NCBI GenBank assembly: GCA_020052095.1
Contig: JAGVPT010000236.1
Coordinates: forward strand, 1-45,958
Direction: 5' to 3'
DNA length: 45,958 nucleotides
DNA from: Bacteroidota bacterium
GTDB lineage: Bacteria; Bacteroidota; Ignavibacteria; UBA10030; UBA8401
The translations under genes and the position numbers were made by a program. Positions 9,256 through 20,594 of this stretch are shown piece by piece (the first letter of the stretch is position 1; every line of letters starts with the position of its first letter). The notes below the pieces were generated by a model. That model saw only the letters and a list, made by a program, of their open reading frames with translations, was not told the DNA's origin and ran no database searches.

Positions 9256-10005
9256 ATGAGAAACAAAGTCATTGCGGGAAATTGGAAAATGAACAAAGAT
9301 GTTTTTGAGACCGCCGATCTCATCAACGGACTTAAAAAATCAGTTGCCGCAAAAAATGTGGAGGTGATCGTTTGCCCCCCCTTTACATCCCTCGTTGTCG
9401 CGCAGCAACTGTTAAAAGGGAGCACCATCAAGCTTGGCGCTCAGGACGTCTCGGTTCATGACGACGGTGCATATACCGGAGAAGTCTCTGTTACAATGCT
9501 GAAATCTGTCGGCTGCGAGTATGTTATTGTTGGACACTCCGAGCGTCGGCAATACTTTCACGAATCGAACGAGCTTATCAATCAAAAAGCAAAAAAAGTG
9601 CTCGCTGCATCCATGAGAGTGATCATCTGCGTAGGTGAAACCCTTGAAGAGCGAGAAAAGGAAATCACGGATAAGGTCATCACGGCACAGATAAAAGGAG
9701 TGCTCGCAGGATTGTCCGAATCCGATTTAGAAAGAGTCATCATCGCGTACGAACCTGTGTGGGCGATCGGAACCGGCAAAAATGCTACTCCACGGCAAGC
9801 GGAAGATGTACATCAACTGATACGAAAACTCGTGGGGCAGATCTATTCATGGAATGTTGCCGAAAAGATAATTATTCAATATGGTGGCAGCGTAAAACCG
9901 GAAAATGCCAAAGAATTGTTGTCACAAGATGATATTGACGGCGCGCTTGTTGGAGGCGCGTGCCTGAAGCCCGATTCGTTTGCCGGGATAATCAGCCCGA
10001 TCTGA
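9256..10005 (+). CDS. tpiA: Triosephosphate isomerase
   Basis: It interconverts dihydroxyacetone phosphate and glyceraldehyde 3-phosphate in glycolysis and gluconeogenesis. The 249-residue barrel has all active-site residues: N9/K11 in AGNWKMN, H94 in VGHSERR and E166 in AYEPVWAIGTGK. The phosphate-binding GGSVKPEN lies near the end. It is preceded by a 75-bp spacer after gatB and followed by a clear terminator-like hairpin, so it probably ends the transcript. Confidence 0.97.
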   Translation: MRNKVIAGNWKMNKDVFETADLINGLKKSVAAKNVEVIVCPPFTSLVVAQQLLKGSTIKLGAQDVSVHDDGAYTGEVSVTMLKSVGCEYVIVGHSERRQYFHESNELINQKAKKVLAASMRVIICVGETLEEREKEITDKVITAQIKGVLAGLSESDLERVIIAYEPVWAIGTGKNATPRQAEDVHQLIRKLVGQIYSWNVAEKIIIQYGGSVKPENAKELLSQDDIDGALVGGACLKPDSFAGIISPI

Positions 10006-10063
10006 GGATGCTTATTTGCTTCTGGATTTCGGGCTGGGTTCTTCAGTTCTACATCCTTAAAAC

Positions 10064-10104
10064 GCCCTAAATCACTGTAGTTCAGGGATTTAGGGCACTT
10101 TTAT
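10064..10104 (+). terminator. Probable rho-independent terminator after tpiA
   Basis: A perfect 10-bp stem (GCCCTAAATC 10064-10073 with GATTTAGGGC 10087-10096) with a 13-base loop is followed by the T-rich ACTTTTATTTT. Confidence 0.75.
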
Positions 10105-10109
10105 TTTGA

Positions 10110-10140
10110 TTGCTTTTCGGGCTGTTATGTATTATATTTG
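10110..10140 (+). promoter_or_regulatory. Bacteroidota-type promoter for the GH2-like/smc/lpx operon
   Basis: TTG at 10110-10112, a 20-bp spacer and TATATTTG at 10133-10140 match the -33 TTG / -7 TAnnTTTG consensus established for Bacteroidota. It sits just downstream of the tpiA terminator and about 60 bp before the next start codon. Confidence 0.6.
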
Positions 10141-10200
10141 CGCAGAAAAGGGACTTGCGTTGCCTAGATTTGAGGGAGCGCTGGTGTTTATTTCACATTA

Positions 10201-12816
10201 TTGAGTCCATTATTGCAAACTTCACTGCATCGCTTTCTCCTCGCTCTTGTTTGTCTCCTAGCAATCTCCGCCAATTCGTTTTCCAGAAAGCAATTTTATG
10301 AAAATGGGTCAAAATCGCGCCCCGAAACGCTCAATTTTGCCTCCTCTAGCCGTTCTATTGTTGATTTATCGGGCAATTGGAGTTGCTCTACCGACGAAGG
10401 GGTGACCTGGACTGACGTTCTTGTCCCTTCAGCATCGAATTTTGAAGGCAAAGTGATATTTACGAAGAAGTTTGATCTTTCCAGCAGCCTTCTCACCTCC
10501 TACAGTTTCAAATTTGTTGCGTACGGCATGAATTACATGGCCGAGGTGTTTCTCAATGAGATTTTTGTCGGAAAACACGAAGGCGGTTACACCTCTTTCT
10601 CCTTTCTCGTTCCGGAAAACACGCTTCAAGTCGGCAATGAAAATTTCATTCGCGTCGTCGTAGATAATACGTTGAATGCAAAAAGCACATTGCCCCTTCG
10701 CCAACAAGTCGGGGGTTGGAAGAACTATGGGGGAATTCTGAGGGACATTTTCTTGGTTGCGACTCCCGTTGTCTGGATCGATGATGTTCTCGTTGAGACG
10801 GAGAGCATCGACCCGAAGATCGTGAAGCTTTCCGTGCAGGCAGTCGTATCGGCGCGGGATATTTCGAAGCTGACTTTCGCAAACCATACCGGTCCTGCGA
10901 TAATGAGTTATGCTGTAGAAATCTCCGAGAAGGCAACCGGCGCGATAACCGGAAAATCGACACCTCTGTTCTTCTCCCCGGAAGCGAACAAAGATATGAC
11001 GCTGCAGACAACCGTTGTGATTCCTACTGCCAAGCTATGGAGCCTTGATCAGCCAAACCTCTACATGGTTCGGACAACTGTCAGCACCGTCGACGGAAAA
11101 GTAGTAACGCTTGTCGATGAGGTCAAATTGCAGACCGGGATCAGGACCATCGGCAAGGAGAAGCAGAATATTCTGTTTAACGGTGCGCCCGTGACGCTTC
11201 GTGGGGTAACGTGGACAGAGGATTCGCCGGATCATGGCGGCGCGTTGAGTTACGAGCAGATGGAAAAGGACATTGCACTTATAAAAAATTTGGGCGCGAA
11301 TACCGTGCGGTTCGCTTTTCATCCACCTCATCCGTTCCTGCTGCAATTGTGCGACCAGTACGGGCTTCTGGCGATTGAAGAAATCCCGTTATACGAGATT
11401 CCTGCGGATATTCTTACGGGCGAAAATTATCGGACGCTTGCAGAAAATTATACGCGCGAAATGATCCGGCGGGATAGGAATCATCCGTCAATCATCGGGT
11501 GGGGCCTCGGCGACGGTTTCGAGGCGAGCAACGCGCGCACCGCGGCAGTGATTGAGCAGTTACACGGCGTTGTAAAATCCATGGACAAACGGCTGACCTA
11601 TTTCATTGCGATGTCGCCGGAGAATACTCCGGCATCTTCCATTGTCGACATCGCCGGCGTGCGTTTGTCGAACCCTGATGTGAAAGAATTCAAAGCTCTG
11701 CTCGCACGATGGAAACAGTCTCACCCTGCGCAACCCGTGATCGTCGGACGGTACGGCAAAGCAATCGAAACCGGAAATCGGAACGGCTACAGCGATCCGA
11801 TGTCGCAGGAAGCTCAGGCGCGGTATCTTTTTCAGCGGTACGATGCGTTGAAAGAATCGGCGATCGCCGGCGGCTTTGTGTGGGGATTTGCGGACTGGCG
11901 CGGAGACCGTCCGATGTTGTCCGTCAAATCGGAGAATCCCGATCTTTATTCGTACGGCATCGTCGAATACAATCGCGAAAAGAAAGTCGCGTACGATGTT
12001 GTGCGTTCGATGTTTCTCGGCGAAAAAATTGCGGCGCTTCCCATCGGAACACATTCGGTGTCGTCACCCGTGGCGTATGTTCTATTGGGATTGCTTCTGT
12101 TGATCATTTTTGCATGGTTCCTTAACAGCAACCGGCGTTTCCGCGAAAGCGTCAATCGCGCCTTATTGCGCCCGTACAATTTCTACGCCGACATTCGCGA
12201 CCAGCGAATCTTGTCCAACTTTCACACTGCGTCGCTCTCGGCCGTTGTCGCCGTCACTTTCGCGATTGTCGTCTCGAGCATTGCGTACCATTTTCGCTAC
12301 AGCACAGTGCTCGATTATGCGCTCACGCAATTGATCTCTTCCGATTCACTTAAGGGCGCGATCATCGAGCTCATCTGGCATCCGATCGAATGCATCGCCT
12401 ACGGCGGGCTGGTCTGCTTTGCGTGGATGTTTGTTGTAACGGCGCTCGTGCAATTCTTTTCGCTCTTCGTGCGTGCGAAAGTGTTCCTGTTTCATTCGTA
12501 CTCTGTCGCGGTCTGGTCGGCGCTGCCGATGGTTGTCTTCATCCCACTGGGAATGATTTTATACAGGGTGATGGAAAGCGACGTGTATGTGATACCGGTG
12601 CTCGTGATCTTCAGCGGGGTGATGATCTGGATCTTCTTCCGAACGCTCAAAGGTGTTTCAATCGTCTACGATATTTCTTCTGTCAAGATTTATGCACTGG
12701 GGATCATCGCACTTGCTATCGTAGGTATTGTGTCGTACGGGTATTTCGATTATGCGCATTCCGCCACAGCGTACATTCGTTTCATGATCAGCACGGTTAT
12801 TCCAGCAGCGAACTGA
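10201..12816 (+). CDS. Glycoside hydrolase family 2-like membrane protein lacking both catalytic glutamates
   Basis: This 871-residue protein has a signal peptide (residues about 8-27) and a GH2-type region. The region comprises a jelly-roll sugar-binding domain (about 45-190), an Ig-like domain (about 195-310) and a barrel (about 320-610, starting TLRGVTWTED). Residues about 624-860 form roughly six membrane spans; the arrangement recalls Yip1-type domains, but I am unsure. The canonical acid/base motif W-S-L-G-N-E is W434-G-L-G-D438-G439. The nucleophile motif E-Y-G is R517-Y-G. Both catalytic Glu are therefore missing, although the surrounding fold motifs (RDRNHPS, FVWGFADWRGDRP) are kept. 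I infer a carbohydrate-binding or structural role rather than hydrolysis. The start is TTG with no good ribosome site; no ATG occurs for over 100 codons. smc begins 16 bp later. Confidence 0.7.
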   Translation: MSPLLQTSLHRFLLALVCLLAISANSFSRKQFYENGSKSRPETLNFASSSRSIVDLSGNWSCSTDEGVTWTDVLVPSASNFEGKVIFTKKFDLSSSLLTSYSFKFVAYGMNYMAEVFLNEIFVGKHEGGYTSFSFLVPENTLQVGNENFIRVVVDNTLNAKSTLPLRQQVGGWKNYGGILRDIFLVATPVVWIDDVLVETESIDPKIVKLSVQAVVSARDISKLTFANHTGPAIMSYAVEISEKATGAITGKSTPLFFSPEANKDMTLQTTVVIPTAKLWSLDQPNLYMVRTTVSTVDGKVVTLVDEVKLQTGIRTIGKEKQNILFNGAPVTLRGVTWTEDSPDHGGALSYEQMEKDIALIKNLGANTVRFAFHPPHPFLLQLCDQYGLLAIEEIPLYEIPADILTGENYRTLAENYTREMIRRDRNHPSIIGWGLGDGFEASNARTAAVIEQLHGVVKSMDKRLTYFIAMSPENTPASSIVDIAGVRLSNPDVKEFKALLARWKQSHPAQPVIVGRYGKAIETGNRNGYSDPMSQEAQARYLFQRYDALKESAIAGGFVWGFADWRGDRPMLSVKSENPDLYSYGIVEYNREKKVAYDVVRSMFLGEKIAALPIGTHSVSSPVAYVLLGLLLLIIFAWFLNSNRRFRESVNRALLRPYNFYADIRDQRILSNFHTASLSAVVAVTFAIVVSSIAYHFRYSTVLDYALTQLISSDSLKGAIIELIWHPIECIAYGGLVCFAWMFVVTALVQFFSLFVRAKVFLFHSYSVAVWSALPMVVFIPLGMILYRVMESDVYVIPVLVIFSGVMIWIFFRTLKGVSIVYDISSVKIYALGIIALAIVGIVSYGYFDYAHSATAYIRFMISTVIPAAN

Positions 12817-12832
12817 ACGGATTGAGGGAATC

Positions 12833-15800
12833 ATGTATTTGTCGAAGTTGGAAGTTGTTGGATTTAAATCGTTCGCGAACAAAGTCAATTTGAAGTTCGA
12901 TGCGGGGATTACGGCCATTGTCGGCCCTAACGGCTGCGGAAAGACGAATGTCGTGGACGCGATCCGCTGGGCGCTGGGCGAGCAGCGTCCGAGCACATTA
13001 CGCAGCGATAAGATGGAAGACGTTATCTTCAACGGGACAAAAAACCGAAAGCCCATCGGTATGGCAGACGTCTCACTCACCATCGAAAACACCAAAGGGA
13101 TCCTCCCCACCGAATACTCTGAAGTCACCATTACGCGCCGCGTGTACCGCTCCGGCGAGAGCGAATACTATCTCAACAAAACACTCTGCCGCCTGAAAGA
13201 CATCAAAGATCTTTTCATGGATACTGGCATGGGATCGGACGCGTACTCGGTGATCGAACTCAAGATGGTCGAGACAATTCTCAGCGACCGCACGGATGAA
13301 CGCCGACGCCTTTTTGAGGAAGCCGCGGGCGTCACAAAATATAAGCACCGTAGAAAAGAGGCATATCGGAAACTCGAAACCGTCCAACTTGACCTTGTCA
13401 GGGTTAATGACGTAGTAAAGGAAATACAAAAAGCGGTGAATTCGTTGGAACGACAGGCGCAAAAGGCGGAAAAATACAACGACTTGTCCCAGCAGTTGCG
13501 CGCCTTGGAAGTGAATCTGTTAGAACGGGACTTTGCCGCTATCGCCGCAAAAATTGGGCCCCTCAAGCGCGAACTTGCGGGGGCTCGGACGGAAAAAGAG
13601 AGGATTGACAAAGAACTTTCAAGCAAGGAAACGCTTCTCGATCTCCTCCGCACAGAAATGGAAGAACTGGAGTCGAACCTCACAGGCGCGCAGACCGAGG
13701 TCGCTGAACAGCAGCAGCGAATCAACGGAGTACAACAACGGCGCATCTCGTCGAGCGAGCGGAAGAAATCGCTTGCGATTGCGATCGAGCGCTACGAAAA
13801 AGATAAGGTCGAACTGCATCGCCAGCAAGAGGAACTGCAGTCGCGGTCGAAAGAATTGCGTGCGTCGATCGAACAGACGCACGAAAAAGTAGAAGAGGCC
13901 GAGCGGTTCTACGCGGAAAAGAAGGAAGAGCTCGACGCGTTCACGGTTCAGCTCGATGGGAAAAAAGCCGACGTGAAGAAGCTCCAAGACCACATCATGG
14001 AATTGCTCAACGAGATTTCGTTGAAACGCCAACAGCATGAACGGACAAAAGCGCGGGTCGAGAACATTCACGGCAGAATCGATTTCTCCACCGAGGAGAA
14101 TGCGATCTACAAGAATGAGGTCGGAACAAATACCGAATTGGTGAATCAACTGAGCGCCGAAGACCGCGAACTGCGGCGCCGGTTTGCCGAAGCAGAAGTG
14201 CGGGTCCATCAGATGGAATCGTACAAAGGGACGCTGGAAAAGGAAATCGAATCCCTGCGCAATCAGGAGTTTGAAGTCCGCGGCGTGCTCGACCGTCGCC
14301 GTGCCCGTCTTGAATTTCTCAGAGGTTTGGTTGAAAGCTACGACGGATTTTCTGAGGGGGCGAAATATCTTATTATGAACGATGAGTGGAAGGCCAACGT
14401 TCAGACAACGGTGGCCGACGCCGTGTCGACAAATGGACAGTACCGCGTTGCGATTGAATCAGCGCTCGGCGAGATGGCGAGTTTCATCGTAGTGAAAAAT
14501 ATTGACGAGGCGTACCGCGGCATCGAAGTCCTGAAGAAAAATCAAAAGGGAAAAGCGACATTCATTTGCCTAGACCGTATTCCCGCACTCCGGAGTACGC
14601 GGCGGCCGATTGCGGGCGACGGCGTTCTTGGGTGGGCACGAGACGTGATCACATGCGATCCGGCGTATACTGGCCTGTGCGATTATATTTTTGACAACAC
14701 GCTGCTCGTGAAAGATGTCAGCGCAGGCTCTCGCTATATCAACGACGAGTCTTTGCTGAAGTGTGTCACGATCGACGGCGAAGTTGTGACTGGTCAAGGT
14801 GTGTTGAAGGGAGGGAGCATCCGCGCCGACGATGGTGGGATGATCGGCAAGAAAAGCCAGATCGTGGAACTCGAGACCGAAACAACGACACTCGGGGTGT
14901 CGCTCGCGAAACTCCGGAAGGACGTTGCCGCCAAAGAGCAGGCGCTGACGAAGGTCGAAGTGAAGACGCTGGCGGGAAATGCAAAACGCATCGAGCAGCA
15001 GATGACGGGGGTCGAAATGCGGATCGCGCAGATCGAGTTCGAGAAAAAACGCATCAATGAAAATATCCAACGTAATTCCTCGGAGAGTGTGAAGCTGTCT
15101 GCGGAAGCGGAGGAACTTCAAAAAGAATTGAACGTGCTTATCCCGGAGATCGAGCGCGTCGAAAAAGAGAAGTCGGCCACAGAACAGAATTCCGGCGCCG
15201 CAATAAGTGAAATGGAAACAATGGAAGTGCTCTGGACCGAGTATTCCGACGTAACGAACAAGGCGCATGTTGCCCTTCTGACGCTGGAGAATGAAGAAAA
15301 AAAGCTCGCACGCGAGCTCGAGTACACACGCGAGACGGTCGAGAATATCGTTGCGACGCTTGCGCAACGGGACCGCGATATCGCCGAAGCGAAGGTCGAG
15401 ATCGAGCGGCTCGCCGGAGAACTTCTGGAAACGGAATCCGAGCTTCAACAGTTGAGCGCGGGCCTACAGACAATGATCGACAGGAAGAAGAGCGTGGACT
15501 CGGACTACAACGCCAAACGCAATCAGACCCACGCGATCGAACTGAAGATCAAAGATGAACGCCGGTTGCACGACGATTCACTCGGCGTCACGCACGAACT
15601 TGAAATCAAGCTCTCCGAGCTGACAATGAAGTCGGAGAACCTCGTGACGCGCGCCCGTGAAGAGTACGGGTTCATCCTCGAATTGAAAGAATATGCCGAT
15701 GCACAGGAATTCGACATCGACGCATGGCGCGATGAAGCGCATGCGCTGAAGGAAAAAATCGCGGCGCTCGGACCGGTGAACTTTGCGGCGTTCGATGAAT

Positions 15801-16384
15801 TCAAGAGCGAAAAAGAACGGCTGGAGTTCATTTCGACGCAGCGTGACGACCTGGTCGAAGCCGAGGAGACCTTGCTTTCGACGATCGAGGAAATAAATAA
15901 CACGGCTCAACGGACGTTCGCGGAGACGTTTGGAAAAATCAGGGAAAACTTCATCGCAACATTCAAGAGCCTGTTCGATGAGGGGGACGATTGCGATCTG
16001 CGTCTTGAAGAAGGAGTCGATCCGCTGGAAGCGCGCATCGAAATTATTGCCAAGCCGCGTGGTAAGCGCCCAACGTCGATCGATTTGCTCTCGGGCGGAG
16101 AGAAAACCCTTACGGCGATCGCGCTCCTCTTTGCGATCTATCTCGTGAAGCCGAGTCCTTTCTGTATTCTAGACGAAGTTGATGCGCCGCTCGACGATTC
16201 CAATATTGACCGGTTCTCGCGCATTCTCAGGAAGTTCAGCGATAATACACAGTTTATTGTCGTCACGCATAACAAGCGAACGATGGAATCGGCCAATGCA
16301 ATGTACGGCGTAACGATGGAAGAGGAAGGCGTCTCGAAACTCGTGTCGGTCCGATTCAATGAAAATTCAATAGCGCAGAACTGA
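12833..16384 (+). CDS. smc: Chromosome segregation ATPase SMC
   Basis: This is the condensin ATPase that compacts and separates chromosomes with ScpA/ScpB. The 1183-residue protein has Walker A GPNGCGKT (K37) in the N-terminal head and a long coiled coil. A hinge lies at about 500-660, followed by a second coil and the C-terminal head with ABC signature LLSGGEKT (S1087) and Walker B ILDEVDAPLDD (D1114, E1115). ATG is preceded by GAGGGAA. The stop overlaps the next start by one base (TGATG), so the two are translationally coupled. scpA and scpB are not in the window. Confidence 0.97.
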   Translation: MYLSKLEVVGFKSFANKVNLKFDAGITAIVGPNGCGKTNVVDAIRWALGEQRPSTLRSDKMEDVIFNGTKNRKPIGMADVSLTIENTKGILPTEYSEVTITRRVYRSGESEYYLNKTLCRLKDIKDLFMDTGMGSDAYSVIELKMVETILSDRTDERRRLFEEAAGVTKYKHRRKEAYRKLETVQLDLVRVNDVVKEIQKAVNSLERQAQKAEKYNDLSQQLRALEVNLLERDFAAIAAKIGPLKRELAGARTEKERIDKELSSKETLLDLLRTEMEELESNLTGAQTEVAEQQQRINGVQQRRISSSERKKSLAIAIERYEKDKVELHRQQEELQSRSKELRASIEQTHEKVEEAERFYAEKKEELDAFTVQLDGKKADVKKLQDHIMELLNEISLKRQQHERTKARVENIHGRIDFSTEENAIYKNEVGTNTELVNQLSAEDRELRRRFAEAEVRVHQMESYKGTLEKEIESLRNQEFEVRGVLDRRRARLEFLRGLVESYDGFSEGAKYLIMNDEWKANVQTTVADAVSTNGQYRVAIESALGEMASFIVVKNIDEAYRGIEVLKKNQKGKATFICLDRIPALRSTRRPIAGDGVLGWARDVITCDPAYTGLCDYIFDNTLLVKDVSAGSRYINDESLLKCVTIDGEVVTGQGVLKGGSIRADDGGMIGKKSQIVELETETTTLGVSLAKLRKDVAAKEQALTKVEVKTLAGNAKRIEQQMTGVEMRIAQIEFEKKRINENIQRNSSESVKLSAEAEELQKELNVLIPEIERVEKEKSATEQNSGAAISEMETMEVLWTEYSDVTNKAHVALLTLENEEKKLARELEYTRETVENIVATLAQRDRDIAEAKVEIERLAGELLETESELQQLSAGLQTMIDRKKSVDSDYNAKRNQTHAIELKIKDERRLHDDSLGVTHELEIKLSELTMKSENLVTRAREEYGFILELKEYADAQEFDIDAWRDEAHALKEKIAALGPVNFAAFDEFKSEKERLEFISTQRDDLVEAEETLLSTIEEINNTAQRTFAETFGKIRENFIATFKSLFDEGDDCDLRLEEGVDPLEARIEIIAKPRGKRPTSIDLLSGGEKTLTAIALLFAIYLVKPSPFCILDEVDAPLDDSNIDRFSRILRKFSDNTQFIVVTHNKRTMESANAMYGVTMEEEGVSKLVSVRFNENSIAQN

Positions 16385-17109
16385 TGAAAGAGCAGCTTTC
16401 CTACATCGTCTTCACCGATTTCGACGGAACGGTAACACGCACCGATATCGGCGACGCGATGTTCACAATGTTCGGCAATAGAAAAAAGTGCGCCGAAGCG
16501 TTTCATGATTCCCTCAAAGGAAGAATTCCAGCCCAAGAAAGCTGGCGCCGTTCGTGTGAGACCGTCGAGTCGCTCTCGCGGAGTGCATTCGCTTCGTTTG
16601 TTGCACCGCAGAATATCGATCCGGGATTTCATGGTTTTGCAGAATATTGCGCAGCGAGATCGATTCCGATAAACATATTGAGCGATGGCTTTGACGTGTA
16701 CATCGATCAGATCCTGCGTCGCGAAGAATTGAACTATCTTCATTTCTACTCGAATCAGCTTGTATTTGAACCGGATGGGAAAATCAGTCCGCGGTTTCCT
16801 TATACCGACGCCGAGTGCATTGAATGCGCAAACTGCAAGCGAAATCATCTGCTGACGAAGTCGGGTGATGATCAGGTGATCGTCTATATCGGCAACGGTC
16901 ATTCAGACCAATGTCCGGTGCGCTACGCCGACATCGTTTTTGCGAAGGCCGCGTTGCTCTCGCATTGCGAGCGCGAGAATATCACCTATCACCGATTTGA
17001 GACGTTCCACGATGTTCTTGCGAAATTCCGAGCGATCGTCGAAGGAGAACGCCCCCGCAAACGGCGGACGGCAGAATTGGCGCGCAAAGAAATTTTCATG
17101 CAAGGCTAA
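16384..17109 (+). CDS. HAD-superfamily phosphatase, MtnX/phosphoserine phosphatase-like
   Basis: This is a 241-residue cytoplasmic hydrolase of the HAD IB group. Motif I is FTDFDGTVT, with nucleophile D12 and acid/base D14. Motif II is the serine of NILSDG, and motif IV is GNGHSDQCPVRYAD. The ECANCKRN segment resembles MtnX-type phosphatases of methionine salvage, but no other salvage gene is nearby, so the substrate is open. It starts inside the smc stop codon and is followed after three bases by the next gene. Confidence 0.75.
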   Translation: MKEQLSYIVFTDFDGTVTRTDIGDAMFTMFGNRKKCAEAFHDSLKGRIPAQESWRRSCETVESLSRSAFASFVAPQNIDPGFHGFAEYCAARSIPINILSDGFDVYIDQILRREELNYLHFYSNQLVFEPDGKISPRFPYTDAECIECANCKRNHLLTKSGDDQVIVYIGNGHSDQCPVRYADIVFAKAALLSHCERENITYHRFETFHDVLAKFRAIVEGERPRKRRTAELARKEIFMQG

Positions 17110-17112
17110 GAC

Positions 17113-17697
17113 GTGGATCTCAGACAGAAGATGTTTGAAATACGGGGCTACACGCCGATCCCCTTCATTGTTCTGATGCTTGTGTACGCCCGACCGACGA
17201 CGTTCTCCCTCGTTGTCGGATTTTGCCTCGCGTTGGCCGGGGAGGCGATCCGTTTTTGGGGCGTTGCAGTTGCGGGGACTGAAACGCGCACAACGGGGCC
17301 TGTTGGAGGGACGCACTTATTCACTGACGGACCTTTCGCCTATGTTCGCAATCCACTGTACGTCGGCAATATGATGATGTACGTCGGCGTCGGCATTATG
17401 TCGAATGCATTGATGCCATACCTCGTTATGCTCGCATACGGATTTTTTGTGGTTCAGTACACGATAATCGTAACAAAAGAAGAAGAGTATTTGGAACGCG
17501 CGTTTGGCGAAGAATACGAGCGCTATGTTCAAAATGTGCCGCGGTTTATGCCGCGGCTGACACCGTATGTCGGCCAACACTCGTTTCACCGGGAACCGGA
17601 TGTCTCGCGCGGATTGCAGTCGGAAAGGCGCACGCTGCAGGCGTTTGCGGCGTTGACCATCGCCAACGTTGTCCTCTTTTTTTTGAGACAAGGCTGA
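17113..17697 (+). CDS. Isoprenylcysteine carboxyl methyltransferase-family membrane protein
   Basis: This 194-residue integral membrane protein has about four to five hydrophobic segments. Its C-terminal half has the ICMT/PEMT signature DGPFAYVRNPLYVGN, then EEEYLERAFGEEYERY. This motif binds S-adenosylmethionine in the family. In bacteria these enzymes are usually predicted to methylate lipids or prenyl compounds; the substrate here is unknown. The start is GTG, three bases after the preceding stop, and lpxB begins four bases after its own stop. It is clearly part of the smc-lpxB transcript. Confidence 0.75.
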   Translation: MDLRQKMFEIRGYTPIPFIVLMLVYARPTTFSLVVGFCLALAGEAIRFWGVAVAGTETRTTGPVGGTHLFTDGPFAYVRNPLYVGNMMMYVGVGIMSNALMPYLVMLAYGFFVVQYTIIVTKEEEYLERAFGEEYERYVQNVPRFMPRLTPYVGQHSFHREPDVSRGLQSERRTLQAFAALTIANVVLFFLRQG

Positions 17698-17701
17698 GCA
17701 C

Positions 17702-18832
17702 ATGGTCCAGCGAGTAATGATGATTGCGGGCGAAGCTTCCGGCGATGCACACGGGGCCGGGGTCGTGAGGGAATTGAAAAAACGACAGCCGTCAATCGAG
17801 ATTTTCGGCATCGGCGGTGAAAAGATGAAGCAGGCTGGGATGGCGTTGACGTATCATGTGCGCGAATTGTCGTTCATGGGATTCATCGAGGTCCTGAAAC
17901 ACCTGCCACTCATCAGGTCCGTCGAACGGACGATGGAGCAACTTATCGTGTTGAAGAAGCCCGATGTTGTCGTGTTGATCGACTATCCGGGTTTCAATTT
18001 GAGATTTGCGCGTAAAGCGAAGAAGCACGGCGTGAAAATTGTCTATTACATCAGTCCTCAAGTGTGGGCATGGAAGAAGGGAAGGGTGAAAAAAATGCGC
18101 GGCGTCGTCGATGCGATGCTCGTTGTGTTTCCTTTCGAGGAGGAGATTTATCGCAAGAACGGGATCGATGTGCAATTTGTCGGACATCCATTACTCGAGG
18201 AACTGACGGTCGAGTTTACACGCGATCAGTTTTGCAAACGATTCGGCGTCGACCCGCGGAGGAAAATTTTGGCGTTAATTCCGGGAAGCCGGCGCCAGGA
18301 GATCGAAAATATATTTTCGGTGATGGCTCGGGCTGCGGGTCAGCTCCAGCGCGATGAACAGTGCGAAGTCGTCGTCGCCGTTGCGCCCCATCTCCATCAA
18401 AAGTTGTTCGAGATGCATTTGCCTCCCGGCGTCTCGCTTCATTTTGTCGAGAACGCGACGCACGAGGCCATGAAGTATGCCGACCTCGCAATTGTCACAT
18501 CGGGGACCGCAACGCTCGAGACGGCATGTTTTGAAACGCCGATGGTGGTTGTCTATCGAACGTCGTGGCTTACGTACGCGATTGCGCGTGCGCTCGTTCG
18601 AATCAAAAACATCGGCCTGGTGAATATTGTCGCTGGAAAGAGAATTGTGCCGGAACTTGTTCAGGGCGATGTAACAGTTTCAAAGATCGTTGCGATCGCA
18701 TCGGAACTCTTCCACAATGCAGACCGTCGTGACGGGATGAAAAGAGATCTCTCGGTGGTGCGAGGTTTGCTCGGTGCGAAGGGGGCGTCTGCAAACGTTG
18801 CGGCCGCGATTCTCGCAATGAACCCGGCGTGA
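17702..18832 (+). CDS. lpxB: Lipid-A-disaccharide synthase
   Basis: This peripheral membrane GT19 glycosyltransferase joins UDP-2,3-diacylglucosamine to lipid X to form the lipid A disaccharide. The 376-residue protein begins with the family motif AGEASGDAHGA. It continues with LIDYPGFNLRFA, ISPQVWAWKKGRV and FVGHPL, then the nucleotide-binding region IPGSRRQEI and VTSGTATLETA. The stop overlaps a GTG that could start the next gene. With lpxK two genes later, this shows a lipid A-based outer membrane. Confidence 0.95.
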   Translation: MVQRVMMIAGEASGDAHGAGVVRELKKRQPSIEIFGIGGEKMKQAGMALTYHVRELSFMGFIEVLKHLPLIRSVERTMEQLIVLKKPDVVVLIDYPGFNLRFARKAKKHGVKIVYYISPQVWAWKKGRVKKMRGVVDAMLVVFPFEEEIYRKNGIDVQFVGHPLLEELTVEFTRDQFCKRFGVDPRRKILALIPGSRRQEIENIFSVMARAAGQLQRDEQCEVVVAVAPHLHQKLFEMHLPPGVSLHFVENATHEAMKYADLAIVTSGTATLETACFETPMVVVYRTSWLTYAIARALVRIKNIGLVNIVAGKRIVPELVQGDVTVSKIVAIASELFHNADRRDGMKRDLSVVRGLLGAKGASANVAAAILAMNPA

Positions 18833-18846
18833 CAAAGGATCACGCC

Positions 18847-19542
18847 ATGGCAAAGAGAGTACTCAATTGGCTCGCGAAAAATATCCTCTGGATTGCAGCG
18901 TGGTTGTTATGCGCCTCGCTGCGGATAAAGAAAAGCAATGCCTCGTTCTTTGAAGATATTCAACACAGCCAGAAACCATCGGTCATCGGCTTCTGGCATG
19001 GCTCGATGCTTCTTGGATGGTTTCTTCATCGTCCGCGAAAGAACTTTCGCGTTGCCGCATTAGTGAGCCAGAGTGAAGACGGAGAAATACTTTCGGCAAC
19101 ATTGAAGCGCTGGGGCTATACAATGATTCGCGGTTCGAGCCACGTTGGCGGAAGAGAAGCTATGCGGTTGATGGTCGATGCAGTGTCGGAAGGCAATTCC
19201 CTCTGCATCACGCCCGACGGCCCGACGGGTCCGCGGCATGAGATGAAAATGGGGGCGGTCCGTGCAGCGCAGCGAGCAAACGTACCGTTGTTTTTGGTTG
19301 GTATCGCGGTCAAGGAGAAAACAAATTTGGAAAGCTGGGATCAATTTGAGATACCGATGCCGTTCGCGAAAGTGAGCGTCTGGTACAGCGACCCGATCAC
19401 CGTTCCACAAGAATTGCGCGATGAAGCGCTCGTGAATTTCTTGCGTTCGACCCAAATGCAATTGCAGGAGTTGAATTCGAAAGCCGGGCAATCACTGGCC
19501 GCGGCCGAAACAGGACTCTCTGGAAAACGAATGGCAGGATGA
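18847..19542 (+). CDS. DUF374-type lysophospholipid acyltransferase-like protein, probable lipid A acyltransferase
   Basis: This 231-residue protein has an N-terminal hydrophobic segment. The DUF374 motifs are GFWHGSMLLG, VSQSEDGE, RGSSHVGGREA and ITPDGPTGPRHEM. The His of FWHG and the PDGPTGPR loop correspond to the LPLAT catalytic and phosphate-binding blocks. Its position between lpxB and lpxK suggests that it adds a secondary acyl chain to lipid A or its precursor; this is inference from context. I chose ATG 18847, which has AAAGGA six bases upstream. A GTG at 18829 overlapping the lpxB stop would add six residues. The stop overlaps lpxK by four bases. Confidence 0.8.
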   Translation: MAKRVLNWLAKNILWIAAWLLCASLRIKKSNASFFEDIQHSQKPSVIGFWHGSMLLGWFLHRPRKNFRVAALVSQSEDGEILSATLKRWGYTMIRGSSHVGGREAMRLMVDAVSEGNSLCITPDGPTGPRHEMKMGAVRAAQRANVPLFLVGIAVKEKTNLESWDQFEIPMPFAKVSVWYSDPITVPQELRDEALVNFLRSTQMQLQELNSKAGQSLAAAETGLSGKRMAG

Positions 19543-20594
19543 AACCAGTTGCGGCATTAGTACCGTTATCGTGGATCTATGGATGCGGGGTAGTACTTAG
19601 AAATCTCTTTTTTGACCAGGAGATGTTTCATGCCGAGCATGTCGGCGTGCCGGTCATCTCGGTCGGCAATATTTCTGCGGGAGGAACCGGAAAGACTCCG
19701 GTTGTCGAATCGATAGCGAGGACTCTTGCGGAGAAGGGCATCCTCGCGGGAATCATCAGCAGAGGCTATAAGAGATCGACTCGTGGGTTGGTAGCGGTTT
19801 CAGATGGAAAATCATTGAAGGTGACGGCGCAGGAATCGGGAGACGAGCCGCACCAACTGGCAATGCATTTGCCGCAAACAGTTATCGTGGTGGATGAGCA
19901 GCGTGTGCGGGGCGCGAGATATGCGGTGAATAGCCTGGGCGTGCAGGCGATTATCCTCGACGATGGATTCCAGCACCGCGCGATCCACCGTGATCTGGAC
20001 ATAGTTGTCATCGATGCGTCGCGGTCGCCCTTCGCGATGCGTATGCTGCCGGCGGGATATCGTCGCGACACGTACAGTTCTTTGAAACGTGGGGACATCG
20101 TTCTTCTCACTAAGGTGAAGCAGACAACTACGGTCGACCGGCTCGAAGAGCGTATCAGAAAATTTTCCGATGCGAAGATTTTCACAAGCACGTTTAGCGT
20201 TGCTGCGTTTCGCAGGGCGAAGACGAAATTCAGTGTGAACCTCGAGAGCGTGAAAGGGAAGAAGGCCGTTGCATTTTGCGGCATCGGTCAGCCCGAGAGC
20301 TTTCGCGCAAGCCTCGAAGAGATCGGCGTCCATGTAGTCTCGCTGATGCCCTTTGAAGACCATCACTCGTATTCGAGATCCGACCTCGCGCGCGTAGCAA
20401 CTGAACAGGAGAAGTTGTCCGCGGAGTACATCGTTACGACGGAAAAGGACATGGCGCGGCTCTCCGGCTCGGCGTCGGGAGATTTCTTGGAAAAGAATCC
20501 GGTATTCTATGTCGAGATGAGGACGGAAATTCATCAACAGAAAGAATGGGATGCATTGATGCTTTCGACGATAAAAAAGAAAAACGGACAATGA
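19539..20594 (+). CDS. lpxK: Tetraacyldisaccharide 4'-kinase
   Basis: It phosphorylates the 4' position of the lipid A disaccharide at the inner membrane. The 351-residue protein has a hydrophobic N-terminus and an unusual P-loop, GNISAGGTGKTP (K52). The LDDGFQHR motif, with the catalytic Asp of the family, precedes VIDASRSPF. It starts in the ATGA overlap with the acyltransferase and ends in an ATGA overlap with the next gene, so expression is tightly coupled. Confidence 0.95.
   Translation: MKPVAALVPLSWIYGCGVVLRNLFFDQEMFHAEHVGVPVISVGNISAGGTGKTPVVESIARTLAEKGILAGIISRGYKRSTRGLVAVSDGKSLKVTAQESGDEPHQLAMHLPQTVIVVDEQRVRGARYAVNSLGVQAIILDDGFQHRAIHRDLDIVVIDASRSPFAMRMLPAGYRRDTYSSLKRGDIVLLTKVKQTTTVDRLEERIRKFSDAKIFTSTFSVAAFRRAKTKFSVNLESVKGKKAVAFCGIGQPESFRASLEEIGVHVVSLMPFEDHHSYSRSDLARVATEQEKLSAEYIVTTEKDMARLSGSASGDFLEKNPVFYVEMRTEIHQQKEWDALMLSTIKKKNGQ

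Follow-up and report, generated by a model that had tools for sequence, protein, structure and literature searches.

The window, by which we mean the whole 45,958-nucleotide stretch of DNA analysed here, contains a gene predicted to encode a GH2-derived pseudoenzyme joined to a Yip1-like membrane domain (Table 1). Because the region around its start (10170-10213) has no ATG or GTG start and no well-spaced Shine-Dalgarno sequence, with a purine-rich GAGGGAG lying about 23 bp before the TTG, the choice between positions 10201 and 10213 as the start is unsure. The gene order tpiA, GH2-Yip1, smc, HAD phosphatase, PEMT/ICMT methyltransferase, lpxB, DUF374 and lpxK (9256-20594 in the window) is kept in many relatives.

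Table 1. Features of the GH2-Yip1 gene and its neighbors in the window
Feature	Position	Strand	Details
tpiA	9256..10005	+	PF00121; upstream neighbor in 20 surveyed loci
GH2-derived pseudoenzyme with Yip1-like membrane domain	10201..12816	+	871 aa, TTG start; orthologues in 59 of 60 relatives
N-terminus, signal-peptide-like (residues 1-27)	10201..10281	+	hydrophobic segment 3-30; modelled helix 8-26, low confidence
GH2 N-terminal jelly-roll domain (residues 50-190)	10348..10770	+	PF02837 match 52-189
GH2 immunoglobulin-like domain (residues 191-312)	10771..11136	+	PF00703 match 194-315
GH2 TIM barrel (residues 313-606)	11137..12018	+	PF02836 match 321-602; structure match Z 39.5
D438-G439 instead of Asn-Glu, acid/base site	11512..11517	+	N-E in 14/14 active paralogues and 6/6 intact orthologues
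R517 instead of nucleophile Glu	11749..11751	+	E in 14/14 active paralogues and 6/6 intact orthologues
Membrane domain (residues 612-865), six predicted helices; 655-845 match Yip1	12034..12795	+	PF04893 in 26/31 orthologue domains
Charged segment following TM1 (RRFRES..RALLRPYNFYADIRDQR; RRFRES..RPYNFYADIRDQR), highly conserved	12133..12207	+	predicted cytoplasmic
smc	12833..16384	+	16 bp downstream of the fusion gene; SMC_N and SMC_hinge
HAD phosphatase, PEMT/ICMT methyltransferase, lpxB, DUF374 and lpxK cluster	16384..20594	+	domain matches, neighbor survey

All three GH2 domains are present in residues ~50-606 of the window protein. Pfam matches were found to Glyco_hydro_2_C (E=2e-29), Glyco_hydro_2_N (8e-8) and Glyco_hydro_2 (2e-7), and NCBIfam and PDB searches led to beta-galactosidases and beta-glucuronidases. 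An AlphaFold2 model built from 35 orthologues (mean pLDDT 87, pTM 0.83) superposes on the GH2 uronidase 6ncx over 527 residues at 2.3 Å and on Escherichia coli GUS (3k4d) over 521 residues at 2.0 Å (Z 37.7), which answers the structural check that the first-pass annotation had proposed. The jelly-roll, immunoglobulin-like and TIM-barrel domains are thus common to the window protein and the GH2 beta-glucuronidases and beta-galacturonidases (6ncx, 3k4d, 5uj6). Unlike these enzymes, the window protein lacks the catalytic Glu pair and the pocket His residues and is fused to a polytopic membrane domain.

The loss of the catalytic residues was first proposed from the window sequence alone, and alignment with 14 active GH2 paralogues from related genomes bears it out. 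The window protein has W434-G-L-G-D438-G439 where all 14 paralogues have Asn-Glu at the acid/base site, and R517-Y-G where all 14 have the nucleophile Glu. Both pocket His residues are also replaced, by T339 in the RHED motif and by F373 in the HYP motif. No other Glu takes the place of the catalytic pair; the conserved acidic residues close by, E394 and D565, are found just as consistently in the active paralogues (14/14) and are therefore ordinary GH2 residues rather than substitutes. The catalytic Glu pair is absent from the window protein while the predicted GH2 fold is intact.

Among 85 aligned orthologues, 57 have neither Glu, 15 retain only the nucleophile, seven retain only the acid/base and six retain both. 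The six with both (L086 and L124-L128) are species of one family, f20, and carry the full GH2 catalytic set: R-H-E-D, G-H-Y-P, N-E and E-Y-G. Their gene lies directly before smc, as in the inactive members, and they branch within the fusion family, a group with 100% support, apart from the paralogues. This shared locus and placement suggest that the ancestor of the fusion family was likely an active membrane-anchored GH2 enzyme. The f20 species offer a natural active control. Since some lineages keep only the nucleophile and others only the acid/base, the two Glu residues disappeared separately. How often this happened is uncertain, because the AU test does not reject a single clade of all inactive members (p 0.405); Dollo counts of 10 and 13 losses are contingent on a rapidly built tree in which some forks are open.

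It had been asked whether Gly439 and Arg517 are conserved in homologues, and they are not: position 439 is Gly in about half of the orthologues, and position 517 is Glu, Ser, Gly, Ala, Arg or Lys. Both catalytic positions vary widely among inactive members and positions 438, 439 and 517 show no newly conserved residue, evidence against a novel chemistry common to the group. The first-pass annotation had held that close homologues with Glu at either site would count against its reading. Formally, such homologues do occur, with Glu at 439 only (L031, L033, L035, L039 and L041) or with both Glu residues, at 38-43% identity to the window protein; the inspected orthologues of family f1, which are 44-71% identical to it, have none at either site. 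The Glu residues in the more distant homologues do not imply restored catalytic residues in the window protein. In three cases (L109 in G083, L009, and G021:C98), the orthologue is split across two or three frames or ORFs, reflecting either true decay or a sequencing or assembly error.

Purifying selection acts on the inactive ectodomain as strongly as on intact orthologues. Values of dN/dS for the GH2 region were mostly 0.04-0.10 in close pairs of inactive members, compared to 0.058-0.064 in intact pairs, and are approximate because they were computed by NG86 with dS > 1 in many pairs. These low values indicate that the GH2 fold is maintained in the inactive members. Together with the intact fold and the replaced catalytic pair and pocket His residues, this agrees with the earlier description of the protein as a pseudoenzyme. 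Within the clade of the window protein, the jelly-roll is the most conserved domain (0.70). The ratio of pocket-core to barrel-helix conservation is 1.36 in the active GH2 paralogues compared to 1.11 +/- 0.03 when 14 inactive members are drawn at random, suggesting that the pocket has partly lost its privileged conservation, although the active set is more diverse and so an imperfect control.

The predicted architecture, a secreted GH2 region followed by about six membrane spans, was anticipated by the first-pass annotation and fits the signal-like N-terminus and the six hydrophobic segments found after residue 615, which form helices in the predicted models (pLDDT 86.6 for the membrane domain). 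We describe this domain as Yip1-like. The best of the orthologue matches to the Yip1 profile reached 9.4e-7, and several orthologue domains score above the Pfam cut-off (for example, 36.0 bits in G002 and 30.0 bits in G006), whereas the domain of the window protein itself scores 18.8 bits, below the gathering cut-off of 28.6. A profile of the orthologue membrane domains matched the stand-alone Yip1 proteins of the same genomes weakly (E 9e-4, probability 23%). Neither NCBIfam nor a PDB structure search with the membrane domain alone (E < 0.001 or Z of 8) gave a match. The domain matches the profile of the Yip1 family (PF04893/COG2881) and some orthologues exceed its cut-off, but the other family members seen in these genomes are stand-alone proteins, and the fusion has a GH2 ectodomain and an extra first helix. 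The charged segment following TM1 ranks among the most conserved parts of the protein, with R653, N660, F661, D664, R666 and D667 invariant in both alignments (A1 and A2). Given the putative signal peptide and the presumed periplasmic location of the ectodomain, this segment would face the cytoplasm.

The GH2-Yip1 fusion is a single-copy core gene of the class. It was found in 59 of 60 related genomes, a few of the best matches being short or perhaps ordinary GH2 proteins. Searches with the membrane domain alone gave matches in 139 of 149 genomes of the class and in 85 of 296 genomes of the phylum, a sample that includes those of the class. The gene is normally present once per genome and also occurs in other classes of the phylum. 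In one contig scan, the named relatives were metagenome-assembled genomes labelled Ignavibacteriales, Ignavibacteriae, Ignavibacteriaceae, Bacteroidetes or plain bacterium. One genus, g47 of family f15, has the membrane part alone, directly before smc in all five loci examined (L104-L108), and the GH2 part was not found at another place in any of seven g47 genomes. Other genera of f15 have neither part, and smc was retained in all four of their genomes that were checked.

The adjacency to smc seen in the window extends across the family. Immediately 3' of the fusion gene, on the same strand, smc is found in 79 of 90 loci, with gaps mostly below 30 bp, and in two more loci the genes overlap in our estimate. 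The remaining nine loci, which lack a nearby smc, all lie within a single branch of the tree (L094, L095, L097-L099, L122, L087, L089 and L080). In this branch the nucleophile position is also very varied (Ala, Cys, Leu, Asn, Ser or Val). All loci sampled outside the class adjoin smc. With 39 loci in the neighbor survey, smc is the most constant neighbor; tpiA (20), the HAD gene (20) and lpxB (18) each occur about half as often. The gene had been described as the first of an operon with smc; the adjacency stands but the first place is doubtful, since only 195 bp separate the fusion gene from the end of tpiA, which precedes it on the same strand, and the fusion gene may therefore be internal to a larger gene cluster. 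The suggested link to lipid A genes found no support. Near the fusion gene, lpxB occurs in about one third of the surveyed loci, and it is retained in genera without the GH2 part. A lipid A connection of the GH2 part was rejected for lack of co-loss: every f15 genome tested has lpxB, indicating that the GH2 part was lost independently of lipid A synthesis.

The loss of catalytic residues from a protein that is nevertheless conserved across the class beside smc suggests that it is probably a binding or scaffolding part of the envelope rather than an enzyme. In the model we favor, and consider rather probable, the protein is a scaffold or receptor in the periplasm that lacks catalysis and is carried by a Yip1-like domain in the inner membrane, its gene being co-transcribed with smc. 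The window protein would have descended from a membrane-anchored GH2 beta-glycosidase whose catalysis is now gone. Its ectodomain, presumably folded in the periplasm and held by TM1, would bind a glycan or protein partner or act as a scaffold for it, and the six-helix Yip1-like domain, with its conserved charged segment on the predicted cytoplasmic side, may be the more constant functional part. If the gene is co-transcribed with smc, as the gene order suggests, the dose or timing of the fusion protein would be tied to chromosome handling and cell growth.

A more specific version, in line with the sugar-sensing role raised by the first-pass annotation, is that the old pocket acts as a dead lectin or sensor that binds an envelope sugar (peptidoglycan, lipopolysaccharide or exopolysaccharide) and reports through the membrane domain. 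Two pocket loops (518-535 and 371-377) are still well conserved in the clade of the window protein (0.79-0.81), as are the residues D565, N526, G529 and Y530 and the GH2 N-terminal domain. This conservation would fit retained ligand binding, but it could be structural instead. Since conservation favors the pocket core less than it does in active GH2 enzymes, inactive members vary freely at both catalytic positions and there is no co-loss with lipid A genes, we regard a sensor of this kind as possible but unlikely. Continued catalysis, through other residues such as D438, E394 or D565 or by a different reaction, is very unlikely. The conservation of E394 and D565 could be read in its favor, as could the 15 orthologues that keep the nucleophile and the seven that keep the acid/base, but E394 and D565 are just as conserved in the active paralogues, positions 438, 439 and 517 have gained no conserved residue, and both pocket His residues are lost as well.

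Adjacency to smc in several classes, even where the GH2 part is missing, together with a conserved charged segment predicted to face the cytoplasm, raises the idea that the fusion protein is an SMC partner that tethers or positions chromosome organisation at the membrane. We consider this improbable, because co-expression could also account for the adjacency, smc lies elsewhere in one clade and some f15 genera keep smc without the fusion gene; the adjacency may reflect function or expression only. A bolder proposal, to which we likewise give very little weight, is that GH2-Yip1 and SMC work together as one functional module: the periplasmic pseudoglycosidase would sense the state of the envelope, and the membrane domain would position or regulate SMC. 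If true, such a module would link envelope growth to chromosome segregation in the class. The least credible explanation is that a useful membrane domain carries with it a GH2 part that is a relic in decay. Its piecemeal loss of catalytic residues and its disappearance from genus g47 point in this direction, but a dN/dS near 0.05, reading frames that remain open in nearly all members and a jelly-roll as conserved as the membrane domain make it hardly tenable.

The working principle that we favor for the window protein, a non-catalytic ectodomain that binds or scaffolds at the membrane, may have analogues in other glycosidase folds. The 4F2hc and rBAT heavy chains (SLC3) carry a membrane-anchored GH13-like ectodomain, described as a "fake or orphan" glucosidase, that serves a polytopic partner (PMC8537225), and Klotho is a membrane-bound GH1-like glycosidase fold without the catalytic Glu that acts as a co-receptor (PMC10628560). 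The window protein would resemble the former as a glycosidase-fold ectodomain without catalysis on a membrane anchor, and the latter as a membrane-bound glycosidase fold lacking catalytic Glu; the likeness is one of principle and not of family membership. In contrast to the window protein, 4F2hc and rBAT are vertebrate GH13 proteins with a single TM and a separate transporter subunit, and Klotho is a GH1 protein with a single TM in animal signalling. No description of a GH2-Yip1 fusion was found in the literature searched on GH2 pseudoenzymes, on Yip1 with glycoside hydrolases or on GH2 proteins of Ignavibacteria.

One orthologous locus thus provides a natural series of forms, from fully intact through one Glu and no Glu to the ectodomain gone, so that the route by which an enzyme turns into a pseudoenzyme, and the reasons for it, can be put to a direct test. 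The fusion is also a lead on bacterial Yip1-like domains, about whose role little is known, and on a membrane gene whose pairing with smc has persisted.
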